Assembly (NCBI RefSeq): GCF_000515395.1
Contig: NZ_KI911782.1
Coordinates: 3,904,606-3,968,605 of the forward strand
Source: Jiangella gansuensis DSM 44835
Lineage (GTDB): Bacteria > Actinomycetota > Actinomycetes > Jiangellales > Jiangellaceae
DNA length: 64,000 nt
Direction of reading: 5' to 3'
A program made the position numbers and the translations under genes. The notes below the pieces were generated by a model, which was given only the letters and a program-made list of their open reading frames with translations, was not told the origin of the DNA and ran no database searches. Position 1 is the first letter of the stretch. Every line of letters starts with the position of its first letter. Below, one piece after another: positions 12,029 through 21,537 of this stretch.

Positions 12029-12675
12029 GTCCTCGCCCTCCGTCGTCGCACCGCGAACCAGCCGCCGAGGATCAACGGCCCGGCCACACCGCCGCTGAAG
12101 ACGCCGATGAGCAGCCCGGCCGCGATGGTGCCGCCGGTGCCGCCCCAGTAGTGGCTGCCGGTGTCCTCGCCCAGCTCGTACTCGCGGCCGTCGTTGGCCT
12201 CGATCTCCTCCAGCACCCGGGTGGTCTCGCGGGCGCTGGTCCATTCGCCGTCGAGGGTGCCGTAGGCGGAGAAGTACTCGCCGGTGATGCCGATGTCGGC
12301 GCTGGACAGGTCGCCCCCGGGGCTGACCTCGAGGTAGAGGCCGGGCCGGCCGGTCAGCCGGCCGATCTGACGCAGTACGTCCGAGCTGAAGCGGTACCCC
12401 GCCTCGTAGCTCTCCGGCCACACGACGACGAAGACTTGCGGGTCGGCGGCGGCTGCCGCGGCCTCGAGCCGGCTCAGTTCCTCCTCGGTGAAGGCACCGT
12501 CGGCGCTCGGCTCCACGTAGAGGTGCGAGTCCCGCAGTTCGTCGGCGGCCGCCCGGGCGCGCTCCGTGACGTCGGGCTCGGCCGGTACCCCGGGCGTGGC
12601 GGCCCACCAGGCGATCGCGGCCCCGGCCAGCGCACAGACCAGCGTGATCAGCAGACCTCGGGCGTGGCGACTCAT
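12025..12675 (-). CDS. Small membrane protein with TPM-like domain, no Cys tail
   Basis: This 216-residue middle gene of the operon has an N-terminal membrane anchor or uncleaved signal (LLITLVCALAGAAIAWW), an outer domain with DPQVFVVVWPESYEAGYRF and RPGLYLEVSPGGDLS, and a second hydrophobic segment near the end (GGTIAAGLLIGVFSGG) followed by RRRRA. It resembles the outer domain of its neighbours but lacks their Cys-rich module. The ATG at 12675 overlaps the preceding stop by four bases, as its own stop does the next start, so the three genes are translationally coupled. No function can be assigned. Confidence 0.75.
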   Translation of the reverse strand: MSRHARGLLITLVCALAGAAIAWWAATPGVPAEPDVTERARAAADELRDSHLYVEPSADGAFTEEELSRLEAAAAAADPQVFVVVWPESYEAGYRFSSDVLRQIGRLTGRPGLYLEVSPGGDLSSADIGITGEYFSAYGTLDGEWTSARETTRVLEEIEANDGREYELGEDTGSHYWGGTGGTIAAGLLIGVFSGGVAGPLILGGWFAVRRRRART

Positions 12676-13955
12676 CGGCGGGCGCTCCGATCCTCGAGCA
12701 CCTGGGCGGCGAGGTCGCCGACCAGGGCCCCGAACCCCGTGCGGGCCCACACCGTGGGTGTCTCGACGTACGGGGTCCAGCCACGCAGCCGCCGGCGTAC
12801 CGACAGGAACCGCCCTTCGGCGCGGTCGCGGGCGCAGGACCGGCAGACCGGTGCGTCGATCGACGACCCGCCCACCCGGACGGTGTCCCGGGCCTCGCCG
12901 TGGGCGGGGTTCACGAAGCACGGTCGGTACGCGGCCAGCTTCGGCTCGGACTGTCGCTCCAGCTCCCGGTCCGCGATCCGCGCCAGCACCAGAGCTCCGA
13001 CGGCGTCGAGGTCATCGGCGTCGTCGCCGGTGGTCAGCACCTGGTCGGCGGCCTCGATGGCGAGCGCGGCCGCCGCGGCGTGCGGGGCGGACAGCGTGTG
13101 GGCGGGCAACCCGGCCAGACGGCGGCGGGCGTCGTCGAGCCGGCGCTCGGCCTGGGCGCGGACGCCGGCCGGTATCGGTGCGTGGCCGGTTCGGTCCCGG
13201 CCGTCCTTGCGCGACAGCGGCTTCGCCCGAGCGACGACCAGGGTGACGATGAGGCCCGCGACGACGATGCCGGACGCGGTGGCGAGGACAGCCACCCAGC
13301 GCGCAGCGGCGGCGTCCGCCCGGTCGGAGTCCGGCTCCGGGAGGATCGCCCAGGGCTGGGCCGCGTACTCGTCGACGACGGCGTCCGGCAGCGCGGCGCC
13401 GGGGTCGACGGCGGACCGGACCGTGTAGACGGCCTCCAGCAGCGCCGATGCCCGCGGGTACTCGCCCGGTGCGTTCGCTTCGGCCCGCCGGATGGCGTCG
13501 GCCGCCGGCCGGACGGTGAACTCGTCCAGGCCGTCGCCCCAGGCTTGGGTGTAGGAGATCCCCTCCAGGAATTCGATGTGATACAGCCCGTCGCCGAGCT
13601 CTTCGCGGAACAGGACGGCCGCCTGCTCGGCAGCGCGTTCCGCGTTCGCCAGGTCGGGAGGGGTCTCGGCGAGAACTACGTAAACCGGGACGTCGACGTC
13701 GGCGGCGGCATCGGTGAGCACGTCGTGGGCGCGTCGCGAGTCACCCATCGCCATGGACGGCCGCACGAGCACGGGGTCGGCCCGCAACTCCTCGATGAGC
13801 TGTGCGACGGTGCCGCCGGGCGGGAGGTCGGCAGGCGCGGCCGCTGCCGGCGCGACGGGCGCGGCGAACGCCAGAGCACCGGCCGCCAGCGCGCAGACCT
13901 GTACGGCGCGCCGCCACCGGGACAGTGTGGTCTTCGAATCGGGGACGACGGCCAC
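12672..13955 (-). CDS. Secreted-domain membrane protein with Cys-rich tail, operon leader
   Basis: The protein has 427 residues. A signal peptide (AVQVCALAAGALAFAAPVAP, about 17-36) leads an outer TPM-like domain (VPVYVVLAETPPD, GDGLYHIEFLEG), a membrane helix near 225-245 (VAVLATASGIVVAGLIVTLV) and a cytoplasmic part with CFVNPAHG, CRSC and a closing RTGFGALVGDL. It is the first gene of a three-gene coupled operon and the fuller paralog of the product of 10868-12028. The paired Cys motifs look like a zinc ribbon, suggesting an intracellular partner for the outer sensor-like domain. No named family was recognised with confidence. Confidence 0.75.
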   Translation of the reverse strand: MAVVPDSKTTLSRWRRAVQVCALAAGALAFAAPVAPAAAAPADLPPGGTVAQLIEELRADPVLVRPSMAMGDSRRAHDVLTDAAADVDVPVYVVLAETPPDLANAERAAEQAAVLFREELGDGLYHIEFLEGISYTQAWGDGLDEFTVRPAADAIRRAEANAPGEYPRASALLEAVYTVRSAVDPGAALPDAVVDEYAAQPWAILPEPDSDRADAAAARWVAVLATASGIVVAGLIVTLVVARAKPLSRKDGRDRTGHAPIPAGVRAQAERRLDDARRRLAGLPAHTLSAPHAAAAALAIEAADQVLTTGDDADDLDAVGALVLARIADRELERQSEPKLAAYRPCFVNPAHGEARDTVRVGGSSIDAPVCRSCARDRAEGRFLSVRRRLRGWTPYVETPTVWARTGFGALVGDLAAQVLEDRSARR

Positions 13956-14024
13956 CCGGCGAGCCTATCCACCATCGGTGATCACACGAGCCGCAGGGCC
14001 GGCGTCAGCCGTGTCAGCGACCGC

Positions 14025-14053
14025 GTCAGCGACATGTCACGGCGGTGTCAGCG
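14025..14053 (+). promoter_or_regulatory. SARP-style direct repeats upstream of exporter
   Basis: GTCAGCG (14025), GTCACGG (14036) and GTCAGCG (14047) begin exactly 11 bp apart. Two more GTCAGC units lie at 14004 and 14013 with irregular spacing. Heptamer direct repeats at 11-bp steps are the known binding pattern of SARP regulators, and such a regulator is encoded just downstream at 15961-19191. The repeats end 52 bp before the exporter ATG. No clear -10 box was seen after them. Confidence 0.5.
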
Positions 14054-14105
14054 GTACCGGCGACGGTTGTCGCATCGAAACCGCGACACCGAGACGAGGC
14101 ACCCC

Positions 14106-15110
14106 ATGACCACCGACCGACCTACCGCGATCAGCGCGGCCGGGCTCCGCAAGGCCTACGGCGAGCAGACCGTCCTCGACGGCGTCGACATCGTCGTTCC
14201 CGAAGGCACGGTCTTCTCGCTGCTCGGCCCGAACGGCGCCGGCAAGACCACCACCGTCCAGATCCTCTCGACGCTCATCGAATCCGACGGCGGCAGCGTG
14301 CGAGTCGCCGGCCACGACCTCGCGACGGACGCGGACGGCATCCGCCGCTCCATCGGCGTCACAGGTCAGTTCTCCGCCGTCGACAACCTGCTCACCGGCG
14401 AGGAGAACCTGCTCCTCATGGCCGACCTCAACCACCTTCCCCGGGACGAGGGCCGGCGCCGCACGGCCGAGCTGCTGCAGCGCTTCGACCTGGTGGACGC
14501 CGCGGACAAGAACCCGACGACTTATTCCGGCGGCATGCGGCGCAAGCTCGACCTCGCGATGACGCTGGTGGGCGACCCGAAGGTGATCTTCCTCGACGAG
14601 CCGACGACCGGTCTGGACCCGCGGACCCGGCGCATCATGTGGGACGCCATCCGCGGGCTGGTGGCCGGCGGCGTGACGATCTTCCTCACCACGCAGTATC
14701 TCGAGGAGGCCGATGAGCTGGCCGATCGGATCGCGCTGCTCGACCATGGCCGGATCGTCGCCGAGGGCACCTCAGCGGAGCTGAAGCGGCTCATCCCCGG
14801 CGGCCACATCCGGCTCGAGTTCGCCGACCCGGACGAACTCGACCAGGCCGCCCGTGCGTTCGCCGGTTCTACCCGCGACGACGCCGCGCTGGCTCTGCAG
14901 GTCCCGAGCGACGGCGACGTCCAGTCGCTGCGCGCCGTCCTCGATCACCTCGACGTCGCGTCGATCGAGGTCACGAACCTCACCGTGCACACCCCCGACC
15001 TCGACGACGTGTTCCTGGCGCTGACCGGCCGCCCGGCTGTCGCACACGCCGACGCCGCCGAGGCGACCGACACCGCACCCGGCTCGATGACCAAGGAGAC
15101 CGCCCGATGA
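14106..15110 (+). CDS. ABC exporter ATPase, DrrA-like
   Basis: The 334-residue ATPase drives a two-component exporter with the next gene. Walker A is GPNGAGKTT (41-49), the signature YSGGM, Walker B VIFLDEPTTGLDP and the switch His position is occupied by Gln in LTTQYLEEADEL, as in DrrA-type proteins. The C-terminal 90 residues form the DrrA-style extension. The family exports daunorubicin-like drugs and many other hydrophobic compounds. It overlaps the permease gene by four bases. The SARP-style repeats upstream and the convergent SARP gene suggest inducible control. Confidence 0.9.
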   Translation: MTTDRPTAISAAGLRKAYGEQTVLDGVDIVVPEGTVFSLLGPNGAGKTTTVQILSTLIESDGGSVRVAGHDLATDADGIRRSIGVTGQFSAVDNLLTGEENLLLMADLNHLPRDEGRRRTAELLQRFDLVDAADKNPTTYSGGMRRKLDLAMTLVGDPKVIFLDEPTTGLDPRTRRIMWDAIRGLVAGGVTIFLTTQYLEEADELADRIALLDHGRIVAEGTSAELKRLIPGGHIRLEFADPDELDQAARAFAGSTRDDAALALQVPSDGDVQSLRAVLDHLDVASIEVTNLTVHTPDLDDVFLALTGRPAVAHADAAEATDTAPGSMTKETAR

Positions 15111-15898
15111 GCACTCTCACCCTTGCTGCCCACGACTCGCGCACCATGCTGCGCCGGAGCATGCGCCGGTGGGCGCGCTATCCGGCGATGACCGTGCAGC
15201 TGATCGCACTCCCGGTGATCATGCTGCTGATGTTCGTCTTCGTCTTCGGCGAGACCCTCGGCGCCGGCCTCGGCGGCTCGTCCGCCGGTAGGGGCGACTA
15301 CATCGACTACCTCGTCCCCGGCATCATCCTGATGACCGTGTCCGCGTCGATCCAGGGGACGGCGATCTCCGTCGCCATGGACATGCACGAAGGCATCATC
15401 GCCCGGTTCCGCACCATGGCGATCTCCCGCGGCGCGGTGCTCACCGGTCACGTGATCGGCAGCTTTCTGCAGACCCTGGTCGGCATCGCGATCGTCATCG
15501 GGGTGGCCTTCCTGATCGGGTTCCGGACGAATGCGAACCTGGTGGAGTGGACGGCCACGATCGGCCTGCTGTGTCTCTTCGCCATCGCGCTGACCTGGCT
15601 GGCCGTCGCCATGGGCCTGCAGGCGAAGAGTGTGGAGACGGCCAGCAACACGCCGACGCTGCTGGTGCTGCTGCCGTTCCTGGGCAGCGGGTTCGTCCCC
15701 GTCGACTCGATGCCGGCTGGTCTGGCGTGGTTCGCCGAATACCAGCCGTTCAGCCCCGTGATCGAGACAGTGCGCGGCCTGTTGCTGGGAACCGAGATCG
15801 GCAACAACGCCGTCCTGGCGCTCGCCTGGACAGCCGTGCTCGGCCTGCTCGGCTACTTCTGGGCGCTCAAGCTGTTCCGCCGGCCCCCGGTCCGCTGA
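15107..15898 (+). CDS. ABC exporter permease, DrrB-like
   Basis: The 263-residue protein has about six membrane helices and belongs to the ABC-2 permease class. Visible features are the amphipathic start RSMRRWARYPAMTVQ, the stretch IIARFRTMAISRGAV typical of DrrB coupling loops, and FGSGF-like FLGSGFVPVDSMP. It forms the membrane channel for the ATPase encoded just before it. The two genes overlap as ATGA. A strong hairpin begins six bases after its stop. Confidence 0.88.
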   Translation: MSTLTLAAHDSRTMLRRSMRRWARYPAMTVQLIALPVIMLLMFVFVFGETLGAGLGGSSAGRGDYIDYLVPGIILMTVSASIQGTAISVAMDMHEGIIARFRTMAISRGAVLTGHVIGSFLQTLVGIAIVIGVAFLIGFRTNANLVEWTATIGLLCLFAIALTWLAVAMGLQAKSVETASNTPTLLVLLPFLGSGFVPVDSMPAGLAWFAEYQPFSPVIETVRGLLLGTEIGNNAVLALAWTAVLGLLGYFWALKLFRRPPVR

Positions 15899-15904
15899 CT
15901 TCAC

Positions 15905-15972
15905 CCTTCCCCATGATCATCAAGACTTGACCCGGGCGGGGCCGGGTCAAGTCTTGATGATCATGGGGAAGG
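15905..15972. terminator. Long perfect hairpin between convergent genes
   Basis: Two 31-bp arms (15905-15935 and 15942-15972) are perfectly complementary around a 6-nt loop, GCGGGG. The hairpin lies between the exporter permease and the convergent SARP gene, and the SARP stop codon (15961-15963) falls inside its right arm. It should stop transcription from both sides. Confidence 0.8.
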
Positions 15973-18900
15973 TTCAGGGGAAGGGGCCAGGACCGACGAC
16001 GCCAGCTCGCGCAGCCACGATTCGGCCGAATCGCCATCCAGACCGGCGAGCTCCCGCTTCGTCTCGGCCAGCAGTTCCGAGGCCGCCTCGTCGCCCAGTG
16101 CGGCGCGGGCGGCCTCATCTGCGTGTGCGCCCCAGGGTGACGACCGGTCCAGGCCGCCGGCCAGCACCTCCACCGCGGCCAGCACCCGCACGGCGTCGGC
16201 CGGCCGGTCCTGGCGCAACGCCTGGTCGGCGATGCCGACCAGCACTGCCCCGACCGTCTCCTCGTCGCCGTCATCGCTGCTCAGGACGGCCTCCAGCGCC
16301 TGCGCACGGGCGGCGGCCGCGGCGTCCAAACTCCCGTTCCCGGCGTCCATCCAGGCCCGGATCCCGAGCATGACGGCCCGGAACACCGGATGGACGGGGA
16401 CGTCTCTCAGCAGCGCCTGCGCCCGAGCCAGCTGTTGCGCGGCGGTGGTGGTGTCGCCGGCCCAGATGGCGAGGGTGGCGCGGTTGAGCGCCATGATGGC
16501 CAGGCCGTCGGGCCAGGCGACCTGTTCGGCGTCGTGCTCGGCTCGCTCGACCTCGGCGGCGCTGCCGGCGCGGTCGCCTGTCAGCCACCGCAGTTGGGCG
16601 AGCCGGCTGCGCATCATGACGACGTCGTCGACGGTGCCGATCTCGGCGAGCGCCACGATGGCCTCGTCGTAGTGCTCGATCGCCCGCTCCAGCTCGCCGC
16701 GCCGGGCGTGCAGGTCTGCCAGCGTGGTGAGGGCGTACGAGATTCCCCACCGCTCGCCGACGGCGCGGAACTCGGCAAGCGCCTGCGTGACGTCGGCCTC
16801 CCGATCCCGGGCGGACAGCATCTGCGCCCGGTTCAGCCGAGCCTGGGCGCGGAACCACGGGTCGGGGTCCTCCAGCAGCGGCGCCAGGGCGTCAGCGAGG
16901 CTTGTCAGGGGTTCGTCGCCGGCTCCGAGGATCACGCTCAACGGGGGCATGAACCGCAGGAACGGCCCGGGATTCTCGATGCCGGCGGACAGCTCGCGGG
17001 CCTGGCGCACCCATTCCGCGGCGTCCTTGAGGTCGCCCACCCCGGTGGTGATCAGGAAGGTGACGACGGCGCATGCGGTGGCCCGTGCTTCGCGGTCGGT
17101 CGGGCCGGGAACGGCCAGCGCCTGGGTCGCCAGCTCGATTCCCTCGCTCTTGTGGCCGCTGAGCCACCAGTACCAGCCGCAGGCTGCCACTAGCCGGACC
17201 GCGTTCCGCGCGTCGCCGGCCGCGGCCGCGCCGCGCAGAGCCGCCGTGATGTCGTCGTGCTCGGCGCGCAGCCGCCGCAGCCAGCTGAGTTGCTCGTGGC
17301 GGTGCAGGTGGGGTTCGGCGGTCTCGGCCAGCTCGATCAGGTAGCCGATGTGCGCGCGCCGGACGGCGTCGAGCTCGCCCACCTCGCCCATCCGTTCCAG
17401 ACCGTAGGCCTTGATCGTCTCGAGCAGTCGGTACCGGGGCGCTTCACCGTCGTTGTCGACCGCCAGCAGTGACTTGTCGCTGAGCGAGCTGAGCTCGTCG
17501 AGGACGTCGGCGCCGTCGCAGCACACCCGGGCCGCGGCTTCGGCCGTCGCACCGCTGGCGAACACCGCGAGCCGGCGCAGCACGACCCGTTCGGGTTCGG
17601 GCAGCAGGCTCCAGCTCCAGTCGACGACGGCGCGTAGCGTCTGGTGCCGAGGCAGCGCGGTACGGCTGCCACCGGTGAGCAGCCTGAATCTGTCGTCCAG
17701 GCGGGCGGCCAGCTGCTCCACGGACATGGCGCGCAGCCGGGCGGCGGCCAGCTCGATGGCCAGCGGCATGCCGTCGAGGGCGCGGCAGATGCGGGCGACG
17801 GTGGGCGCGTCGGTGTCGGTGACGGTGAAGCCCGGGCGGGCGGCGCGGGCACGGTCGACGAACAGCCGGACGGCGTCGAAGCGCAGCAGATCATCGGCGC
17901 CGTCGTGCCCCGTCGGGAGTGCCAGCGGCTCGACCGGCCAGACCGCCTCGCCGGTGATGCCGAGCGGCTCGCGGCTGGTTGCGAGAATGCGCAGGTCAGG
18001 GCATTCGCCGAGCAGCCGGTCAGCCAGTGCTGCGGCAGCGTCGATGACGTGCTCACAGTTGTCCATCACGAGCAATGCGGTCCGGGACCGTAGGGCCGCG
18101 ACCAGCCGCCCGGTGGCGTCCTCGGTGGTCGCGCCGAACGCTTGGTCGCGCAGGTCCAGGGCCGCGAGGGCGGCGGCCGGCACGTCGGCGCCGGCAGCGA
18201 CCGGGGCCAGCTCGACCAGCCAGACGCCGTCGGGCAATTGGCTTGTCAGCGTGCTCGAGGCTTCGTTCGCCAGCCGGGTCTTGCCTGACCCGCCCGGCCC
18301 GGTGAGTGTCGTCAGCCGGTACTCGTCGATCAGGTCGCGCACGCGGGCGACGTCGGTGTCGCGGCCGACGAAGCTGGTCAGGCCAGCGCGCAGGTTGGTG
18401 CGGGGGATGGCGGCCCGGGCCGCCGGCTCTGCCTCCCGCGGCGGCGGCGAGGCCGGGTGCGTCAGTTCACCGCGCAGGATCGCCGTGTGCAGGTCGGACA
18501 GCGCCGCGGACGGGTCGGTGCCCAGCTCCTCGGCCAGCGCCTCCCGGGTCCGCTCGTACGCCGCCAGCGCCGCGGCGGGCCGCCCGGCCGCGACCAGCGC
18601 CCGCATGAGCTGCCCGACCAGCCGTTCGCGCAGCGGGTGCTCGGCGACCAGCGTGGTCAGCTCGGTGGTCAGACCGGCGCCGCGGCCCAGCCGCAGCGCG
18701 GCGTCGACGCGGTCCTCCGTCGCCGTCAGCCGCAGCTCCTCCAGTCGCGCCCGCGGCGCCGTGAAGAACCCCGACTCCGCGACGTCCAGCAGTGCCGGCC
18801 CGCGCCACAGCGCAAGTGCGGCTCGTAGCCCGTCCTCCACCGCGGCATCGTCGGACGCGGACCGCGCGGCCACGACCTCCCGCTCGAACCGCGTGGCGTC

Positions 18901-19191
18901 GACGGCGTCCGGCGCCAGCGCCAGCCGGTAGCCCGCCGGGTGCGACTCGATGGCCAGGCCCGGCAGCGCCCGGCGCAGCCGGGACACGAGGGCCTGCAGA
19001 GCGTTGGCGGCACCGGCCGGCGGGTCGTCACCCCAGACGCCGTCGACCAGCTGACCCACCGGTATGAGGCGGCCGGGCTCCAGCGCGAAGGTGATCAGCA
19101 GTGTGCGCAACCGCGCGCCGGCCACGTAAACCGGCGCATCGTCGTTGTGGACCTCCAACGGTCCAAGGATCCCGATGCGCACCGGAGGCAT
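15961..19191 (-). CDS. AfsR/SARP-type regulator with BTAD, NB-ARC-like ATPase and TPR region
   Basis: The 1076-residue protein has a winged-helix OmpR-like domain (1-90, beginning VRIGILGPLEVHNDDAP), a bacterial activator domain (95-242), an ATPase with P-loop GPGGSGKT (298-305) and LLVMDNCEHV as Walker B, and a long C-terminal helical region with TPR-like repeats. This is the AfsR layout; such proteins activate secondary-metabolite or export genes from direct heptamer repeats. Repeats of that kind precede the convergent DrrAB-like operon at 14106-15898, a likely target. The ATG at 19191 starts exactly at the family's usual N-terminus with GGAGG partly overlapping upstream bases. Confidence 0.9.
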   Translation of the reverse strand: MPPVRIGILGPLEVHNDDAPVYVAGARLRTLLITFALEPGRLIPVGQLVDGVWGDDPPAGAANALQALVSRLRRALPGLAIESHPAGYRLALAPDAVDATRFEREVVAARSASDDAAVEDGLRAALALWRGPALLDVAESGFFTAPRARLEELRLTATEDRVDAALRLGRGAGLTTELTTLVAEHPLRERLVGQLMRALVAAGRPAAALAAYERTREALAEELGTDPSAALSDLHTAILRGELTHPASPPPREAEPAARAAIPRTNLRAGLTSFVGRDTDVARVRDLIDEYRLTTLTGPGGSGKTRLANEASSTLTSQLPDGVWLVELAPVAAGADVPAAALAALDLRDQAFGATTEDATGRLVAALRSRTALLVMDNCEHVIDAAAALADRLLGECPDLRILATSREPLGITGEAVWPVEPLALPTGHDGADDLLRFDAVRLFVDRARAARPGFTVTDTDAPTVARICRALDGMPLAIELAAARLRAMSVEQLAARLDDRFRLLTGGSRTALPRHQTLRAVVDWSWSLLPEPERVVLRRLAVFASGATAEAAARVCCDGADVLDELSSLSDKSLLAVDNDGEAPRYRLLETIKAYGLERMGEVGELDAVRRAHIGYLIELAETAEPHLHRHEQLSWLRRLRAEHDDITAALRGAAAAGDARNAVRLVAACGWYWWLSGHKSEGIELATQALAVPGPTDREARATACAVVTFLITTGVGDLKDAAEWVRQARELSAGIENPGPFLRFMPPLSVILGAGDEPLTSLADALAPLLEDPDPWFRAQARLNRAQMLSARDREADVTQALAEFRAVGERWGISYALTTLADLHARRGELERAIEHYDEAIVALAEIGTVDDVVMMRSRLAQLRWLTGDRAGSAAEVERAEHDAEQVAWPDGLAIMALNRATLAIWAGDTTTAAQQLARAQALLRDVPVHPVFRAVMLGIRAWMDAGNGSLDAAAAARAQALEAVLSSDDGDEETVGAVLVGIADQALRQDRPADAVRVLAAVEVLAGGLDRSSPWGAHADEAARAALGDEAASELLAETKRELAGLDGDSAESWLRELASSVLAPSPEPSP

Positions 19192-20289: not shown

Positions 20290-21537
20290 TCACGCGTCGC
20301 AGGCCACCGGCGGCGTGGACGCGGCGGCTCCCACCGGCGCCGGTGCCGTGCGCGGTTGCGCTGCCGCCGCCAACGCCCGCTCGTGGCGCTGCTCGTGCGC
20401 CCACGCCGTCAGGGCCAGCACCAGCCCCGCGAGTGCCAGCCCGGCCGCCAGCCACACCGGCGCCACGTAGCCCCAGCCGGCCGAGATGGCCGCGCCGCCG
20501 AGCCACGGACCCACGGTGTTGCCGACGTTGAACGCCGACGTGTTGACCGACGACGCCAGCGTCGGCGCGTCACCGGCGACGACGAACACGCGGGCGTTGA
20601 GCCCTGGCGCGATCGAGAACCCGGCGACACCGACCGCGAACACCGCCGCGACCGCTCCGGCCGTGCTGCCCGACACCAGCGCCAGTACCGACATCGTCAC
20701 CGCCAACGCCACGAGGCTGCCGAAGATGTTGAGGAACAGCCCACGGTCGGCGATCCGCCCGCCGATGGTGATGCCGATGAAGCTGCCCAGCCCGAACAGC
20801 GCCAGCACCAGCGGTACGTCCGCCTCGTCCAGCCCGGCGACATCGGTGAGCAGCGGGGCGAAGTACGAGAACGCGGCGAACATGGCCGCCTGGAAGGTCG
20901 CCGTTGTCGCCAGGGCCAACCAGATGCGCCGGCCCCGGAACACCCGCAGTTCGTCTCGGACCCGCGGCGGCTCCGACGCGGCGCCGGCGCTCTTCGGCAC
21001 CAGCGCGACCACGGCCAGCGTGGTCAGCACCGCCAGCCCGGCCACCGCCCAGAACGCCGCTCGCCACCCGAGCTGCTGGCCGACCCAGGTGCCGGCCGGC
21101 ACTCCGAGCACGTTCGACAGCGTCAGCCCGCCGACCAGCACCGCCAAGGCCCGCGCCGTGGTCCCCGGCGGCGAGATCCGCACCGTCACCACCGCGGCCA
21201 CAGCCCAGAAGGCTCCGGTGGCGACGGCCGTCACCACGCGGGCGGCCATCAGCAACTCGTACGTGGGCGCCAGCGCCGCCACGACGTGACCGGCCAGGAA
21301 CACCGCCGCGGCCGCGAGCAGGGTCGCCTTGCGCGGCAGGCGCAGCGTCGCGACCGCCATCACCGGCGCGCCGATCGTCATCCCGATCGCGAACCCGGAG
21401 ATGAGCAGACCGGCGTCCGGGATCGAGACGTCCAGGTCTGTCGCGATGGTCGGCAGCAGTCCGGCGATCATGAACTCCGTCGTGCCGAGCACGAAGATGC
21501 TGGAGCCGAGGACGTAGACGGCCGGTGGGACGCGCAC
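20290..21537 (-). CDS. MFS drug efflux transporter, DHA1 (Cmx/AraJ-like)
   Basis: The 415-residue protein has about twelve hydrophobic segments. The opening FVLGTTEFMIAGLLPTIATD is typical of the DHA1 group that includes chloramphenicol exporters and AraJ-like proteins, and LRLPRKATLL is the loop 2-3 motif in degenerate form. It should expel a small hydrophobic compound using the proton gradient. Start is a GTG at 21537 with AAGGAGAG upstream. A TetR-type gene lies 71 bp upstream, and an operator-like palindrome sits in that gap and before the regulator too, indicating joint repression. Confidence 0.88.
   Translation of the reverse strand: MRVPPAVYVLGSSIFVLGTTEFMIAGLLPTIATDLDVSIPDAGLLISGFAIGMTIGAPVMAVATLRLPRKATLLAAAAVFLAGHVVAALAPTYELLMAARVVTAVATGAFWAVAAVVTVRISPPGTTARALAVLVGGLTLSNVLGVPAGTWVGQQLGWRAAFWAVAGLAVLTTLAVVALVPKSAGAASEPPRVRDELRVFRGRRIWLALATTATFQAAMFAAFSYFAPLLTDVAGLDEADVPLVLALFGLGSFIGITIGGRIADRGLFLNIFGSLVALAVTMSVLALVSGSTAGAVAAVFAVGVAGFSIAPGLNARVFVVAGDAPTLASSVNTSAFNVGNTVGPWLGGAAISAGWGYVAPVWLAAGLALAGLVLALTAWAHEQRHERALAAAAQPRTAPAPVGAAASTPPVACDA

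Follow-up and report, generated by a model that had tools for sequence, protein, structure and literature searches.

Upstream of drrA, the ATPase gene of a DrrAB-like exporter in Jiangella gansuensis DSM 44835, five GTCA-containing heptamers are aligned within 50 bp. We propose, with a probability of roughly 0.86, that this array forms the operator part of a SARP-type promoter, and that the SARP encoded by the adjacent gene would activate drrAB through it. A SARP operator is a known kind of site; its place here is apparently unreported, and appears to be widely conserved. The features of the window (the whole stretch of DNA analysed, 64,000 nucleotides) that are referred to below are as follows.

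12672-13955, minus strand: divergent gene with no family assigned, sharing its intergenic region with drrA
14004-14010, plus strand: heptamer 1, GTCAGCC (sequence reading), outermost, outside the strict 11-bp phase
14013-14019, plus strand: heptamer 2, GTCAGCG (sequence reading), 9 bp from heptamer 1
14025-14031, plus strand: heptamer 3, GTCAGCG (sequence reading), 12 bp from heptamer 2
14036-14042, plus strand: heptamer 4, GTCACGG, predicted -38 to -32, in register with the upstream afs-box repeat
14047-14053, plus strand: heptamer 5, GTCAGCG, predicted -27 to -21, followed after 8 bp by the -10
14062-14067, plus strand: predicted -10 hexamer GACGGT (NANNNT), at the same place in 35 of the 42 promoters scored
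14074, plus strand: predicted transcription start, from the predicted -10
14106-15110, plus strand: drrA, ABC exporter ATPase (TIGR01188, 330.7 bits, cut-off 312.45; Pfam ABC_tran and DrrA1-3_C)
15107-15898, plus strand: drrB-like ABC-2 permease gene (Pfam ABC2_membrane)
15961-19191, minus strand: large SARP of 1076 aa (OmpR-type DNA-binding domain, BTAD, AAA/STAND region, TPR)

Organization of the repeat array and the predicted promoter

The sequence-only reading had placed GTCA heptamers at 14004, 14013, 14025, 14036 and 14047, and these positions were borne out by direct reading of the sequence. The start-to-start steps are 9, 12, 11 and 11, so that the 11-bp step it proposed holds for the last three heptamers (14025, 14036 and 14047), as in the direct repeats of SARP promoters, and fails for the two outer steps; heptamers 1 and 2 lie off the strict phase, which counts against reading the array as a SARP operator. 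The array, ending 52 nt before the start codon of drrA, is the sole place on either strand of the window with four or more GTCA in 50 bp. Five GTCA within 50 bp appeared once when the 150-bp intergenic stretch was shuffled 20,000 times with dinucleotides preserved, and in 6 of 300 shuffles of the whole window (both strands), and three GTCA in exact 11-bp steps in 8 of 1000 window shuffles. By itself the array is improbable locally and just moderately improbable window-wide, and the case therefore rests on the comparison with relatives.

In SARP promoters, direct repeats with 11- or 22-bp steps are found, the 3' repeat lying 8 bp from the -10 (accessible text of PMC10936776). The window shows the same distance, the NANNNT hexamer following 8 bp past the 3'-most heptamer. 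The start predicted from it, near 14074, would give drrA a leader of 32 nt before the ATG at 14106 and sets the GTCA motifs of heptamers 4 and 5 at -38 and -27, matching the positions of TTCA in the afs box; the incompatibility of start site and repeats that would speak against the sequence-only reading does not arise with this predicted start. Scans for sigma-70 promoters and terminators between 13900 and 14200 gave no match, in keeping with a promoter that lacks a proper -35.

The divergent gene at 12672-13955 was rejected as a target of the array, since it has its own TAGGCT-like -10 and no phased repeats when read by eye. It is seemingly leaderless, with a GTG 6 nt past TAGGCT, and the congeners look similar (also by eye).

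The SARP gene and the exporter genes

Both neighbours expected from the sequence-only reading were recognized. The exporter following the repeats consists of drrA, with a product above the TIGR01188 cut-off, and then the ABC-2 permease gene, while the SARP gene lies just downstream on the minus strand, converging on drrAB and ending 62 bp beyond drrB. The drrB product scored 69.1 bits against TIGR01247 (DrrB), below the cut-off of 223.05, and is a general ABC-2 permease by Pfam.

The regulator shows the domain order of the SARP family, PF00486 (29.9 bits, cut-off 26.2) followed by PF03704 (137.9 bits, cut-off 22.1), together with a weak TPR match. Its nearest solved structures are AfsR (2.9e-38, phmmer) and EmbR, and its score of 179.3 bits against the AfsR equivalog NF053617 falls far under the cut-off of 1430, indicating that it is AfsR-like, not AfsR. 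The AfsR contact residues W74, P79, S91, R92 and R94 are kept and K95 is replaced by Arg; the base-contact residue T88 corresponds to Ala66, which counts against the reading of the array as a SARP operator. No GTCA array was found in the upstream stretch of the SARP gene itself, and autoregulation is therefore not claimed.

Conservation of the array and the -10 element

SARP orthologs of 68-85% identity were detected in all 11 congeners searched, and some match was obtained in 112 of 148 genomes. A drrA of at least 45% identity was present in 43 of the 60 fetched SARP neighbourhoods, convergent in all 43, and absent from the other 17, indicating that SARPs of this kind can have other targets. 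Upstream of the drrA genes of relatives, GTCA(G/C) arrays with an 11-bp step recur. The conservation of repeats in related exporter promoters, named as a check in the sequence-only reading, was thus observed, the congeners keeping their arrays and the distance to the -10 being kept in 35 of 42 promoters.

This distance was profiled on the 42 promoters that have a [GAT]TCA heptamer together with a second, partner heptamer 11 or 22 bp further up. They were drawn from a set of 62, of which 18 came from loci of the drrA scan described below and 44 from the window and the fetched SARP neighbourhoods. NANNNT lay exactly 8 bp past the 3'-most heptamer in the 35 of 42 scored SARP-paired drrA promoters just mentioned (L046 being scored as a miss, with a later GTCA picked by the script). 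At each of the remaining offsets between +4 and +33 it was seen in 0-2 of the 42. Among the 37 pairs passing a stricter word-plus-minus-10 rule, 23 have an ATG or GTG 6-7 nt after the hexamer; this is the leaderless distance, which independently supports the hexamer as a real -10.

As a genome-wide probe the GTCA pair pattern alone was rejected as too noisy (GTCASN6GTCAS, 57 matches vs 22 for the reversed pattern), and the -10 was therefore added. The strict pattern, two phased heptamers plus the -10, has a single match in the genome of the window, the drrA promoter, and 54 matches in 12 genomes of the genus, the reversed-pattern control giving 0 in all 12. Arrays are more numerous in congeners whose genomes are larger, and include those of further drrAB paralogs and of an MMPL transporter. 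A near-invariant sequence, GTCACCGGTATGTCACC, also matches the array pattern, at 9 places in 8 of the 12 genomes, two of them in G010.

The MMPL arrays are TGTCAG triples with 11-bp steps upstream of an MMPL/RND-type transporter gene in 8 congeners (L097-L104, where they lie at about position 1500, and L146-L154), with a -10 (GATACT, AATACT or GATGGT) 8 bp on and mostly a start codon 6-7 nt later. In five 19-kb neighbourhoods examined, no SARP was found beside this transporter. It was rejected as part of the finding, the genome of the window having no ortholog (best 33%).

Association of the array with a nearby SARP gene

A scan with a DrrA alignment gave 80 named drrA loci. A SARP domain was found by HMM near 16 of them, in all 16 cases downstream on the opposite strand (convergent), and two further SARPs, both truncated, were located by tblastn, making 18 SARP-paired loci. 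GTCA chains of two or more precede 6 of the 16 drrA genes with an HMM-detected SARP vs 2 of the 64 others. When three heptamers in 11-bp steps were scored irrespective of their word, triple arrays at p<0.01 were detected at 13 of 18 SARP-paired vs 2 of 51 unpaired drrA genes (69 loci, Fisher 2e-8), counts that are inflated by association through descent because the array is linked to the SARP gene and inherited with it. The 69 loci are the 80 minus 10 with a contig end within 5 kb downstream and minus L200 (N); none of these 10 had a triple array at p<0.01. When periods of 7 to 23 were scanned, just 11 stood out, a score of at least 17 being reached in 13 of 18 SARP-paired vs 2 of 51 unpaired loci, and at the other periods in 0-2 of the 18.

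The word plus the -10 element was found in 37 of 66 SARP-drrA pairs vs 3 of 52 unpaired drrA genes; the 29 pairs missing this strict element count against the proposal, part of them missing it because they have other words or a CTCA unit. Supported independent contrasts on the drrA tree number 5; a mean of 2.8 run the expected way and 0.0 the opposite way, which is not significant with so few contrasts. Counting against the association are two of the 51 unpaired loci, L177 and L208, with arrays, and some SARP-paired loci (L241 and L244 among the 69 loci, L062, L080, L081 and L087 among the convergent pairs compared below) with no scoring array. At L177 the available sequence ahead of the drrA match is limited to 180 bp, and a SARP may lie on that side. 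At L208 the array has a different word, and by eye a MerR-like ORF lies nearby.

Repeat words and recognition-helix residues

Words were compared in 66 convergent pairs (65 distinct, L095 and L232 being the same locus with an exact sequence shared), leaving out L041 with its SARP lacking the N-terminus. A triple score of at least 17 of 21 was reached in 45 of the 66. The word GTCAG occurs in the clade of the window and in several other clades. A clade of 9 has GTCGG, L169 and L245 have GAAACC, and other pairs show a mixture of GTCAG, GTGCG and GCCAG. The repeated word thus differs among SARP clades and the 11-bp step is constant, in a pairing of regulator and exporter that is found again in many soil bacteria. 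Mapped onto the SARP tree, the words require 6 changes vs a shuffled mean of 15, with 0 of 200 shuffles as low, in a count that left out 25 of the 66 rows with no single clear word. Linked descent explains this clustering on the tree, and a constant step with a changing word is what binding by a co-evolving protein would predict.

Residue differences at positions 88 and 91 (AfsR numbering) go with the words. Phased GTGCG, GCCAG or GTCCG was found in 6 of 7 rows with Ser88 vs 3 of 58 other scored rows, and Gly91 in 9 of 9 rows of the GTCGG clade vs 0 of 56 other scored rows (L218, with no recognition-helix columns, was left out), the corresponding independent contrasts on supported branches numbering 2 and 1, too few to part a code from shared descent. 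In a possible recognition code, Ala or Arg at 88 would go with GTCAG, Ser with GTGCG/GCCAG, Val with GAAACC, and Ala together with Gly91 with GTCGG; clade-private words might then allow paralogous modules in one genome to work with no cross-talk. The module itself would be self-contained and belong to a large family in actinomycetes, with a STAND-type SARP sensor convergent with a drrAB pump that it controls via a private heptamer array. The joint claim, that many such STAND-SARP/drrAB modules have private 11-bp arrays with words readable from residues 88 and 91 and no cross-talk among paralogs, is put forward tentatively, the odds being somewhat against it.

Proposed mode of regulation and alternatives

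We infer, rather than observe directly, binding by the adjacent SARP and activation, these two with high confidence, as well as ligand control, the start site and the exported substrate. The SARP encoded at 15961-19191 would be locked in an inactive state by its own C-terminal STAND/TPR part and released by a signal, probably the exported compound or a consequence thereof. Two protomers would then occupy the heptamers at 14036 and 14047 next to each other, and extra protomers may join on the three upstream heptamers. The bound protomers would recruit sigma region 4 and RNA polymerase to the poor -10 at 14062-14067, and drrAB would be transcribed from about 14074, so that the exporter is made.

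The regulator might instead be a paralogous SARP encoded elsewhere in the genome, as the main binder, or several SARPs might cross-bind. Other SARPs are indeed encoded there (five scored matches of the SARP search in G000), and the GTCAG arrays of congeners precede the MMPL transporter with no SARP in the five neighbourhoods. Against this stand the convergence of SARP and drrA in 43 of 43 cases and a second SARP-drrAB pair in the same genome (L076), which has a different word and Ser, not Ala, at the position of AfsR T88; we consider this explanation unlikely. Activation by the adjacent SARP could also be replaced by repression, relieved by a ligand, in line with the negative action of the medium-sized SARP Atr32 (accessible part of PMC10972967). 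A poor -10 with the array ending 8 bp ahead of it, in afs-box register, is, however, an activator placement, and the exposed -10 and start fit recruitment, making repression quite improbable.

Binding by an OmpR/PhoB-type response regulator (PhoP-like), driving drrA from the same -10, deserves mention because such regulators also bind 11-bp repeats, AfsR and PhoP sharing sites at the afsS promoter (PMC10972967), and because the DNA-binding fold (PF00486) is common to both families. A global response regulator does not predict that arrays track an adjacent SARP gene (13 of 18 vs 2 of 51), nor that the word changes with the SARP clade, and this alternative appears very unlikely. Chance repeats in GC-rich DNA could account for the GTCA cluster, an equal one occurring in 6 of 300 whole-window shuffles, and for the excess of GTCASN6GTCAS pairs (57 vs 22), but not for the arrays in congener promoters with their conserved step and 8-bp distance, nor for a single strict match in the genome with a reversed control of 0. 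Chance is therefore extremely improbable.

Comparison with known systems

The closest described system is AfsR of Streptomyces coelicolor, likewise a large SARP with nucleotide-binding and TPR domains, of which the accessible text of PMC10936776 gives the following. The afs box of afsS, at -40 to -19, consists of 11-bp direct repeats over the place of the -35 with a weak -10, and AfsR makes contacts at T-38 and T-27, so that TTCA in the afs box and GTCA in the window share the register of -38 and -27. In agreement with the SARP-type array proposed in the sequence-only reading, the repeats, the 11-bp step and the 8 bp to the -10 are all present and conserved in relatives. The two sites differ in word (GTCAGCG vs CGTT(T/C)ATCG) and in the number of heptamers (five vs two), and the predicted target of the window SARP is the adjacent exporter, not afsS. 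PimR, a SARP-LAL, is also a large multi-domain SARP and binds cooperatively to the pimM operator of three heptamers with 4-nt spacers; it differs in the word CGGCAAG, in an operator lying off the -35, in its biosynthetic-regulator target and in its other C-terminal part (PMC5930380).

Among Amycolatopsis sulphurea mutants resistant to chelocardin, 9 of 9 had point mutations in an AfsR/SARP gene adjoining drrAB, an arrangement like that of the window; overexpression of drrAB alone gave no resistance, which counts against the proposal, and unlike the window array, no operator is described in the accessible text (PMC7559539).

DnrI of Streptomyces peucetius, unlike the large SARP of the window, is a small SARP within a biosynthetic cluster. 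It is reported to bind drrAB (Prija 2017). The literature covered by the search describes SARP operators in biosynthetic clusters. In a search with subscription papers mostly outside its range, no description was found of a convergent large-SARP/DrrAB module with arrays, and likewise none of clade-specific words with a two-residue recognition code. AfsR-like STAND regulators form a large class with mostly unknown targets; the array supplies a definite target and start site for them, both predicted, and ties them to drug export outside biosynthetic clusters. The natural pairs of regulator and word are usable for testing DNA recognition by SARPs.

Close to the SARP-DrrAB module, a gene for a Cmx/CmrA-family chloramphenicol efflux MFS protein (20290-21537; NF033135 above cut-off) was also detected, so that two drug exporters are near neighbours in the window.
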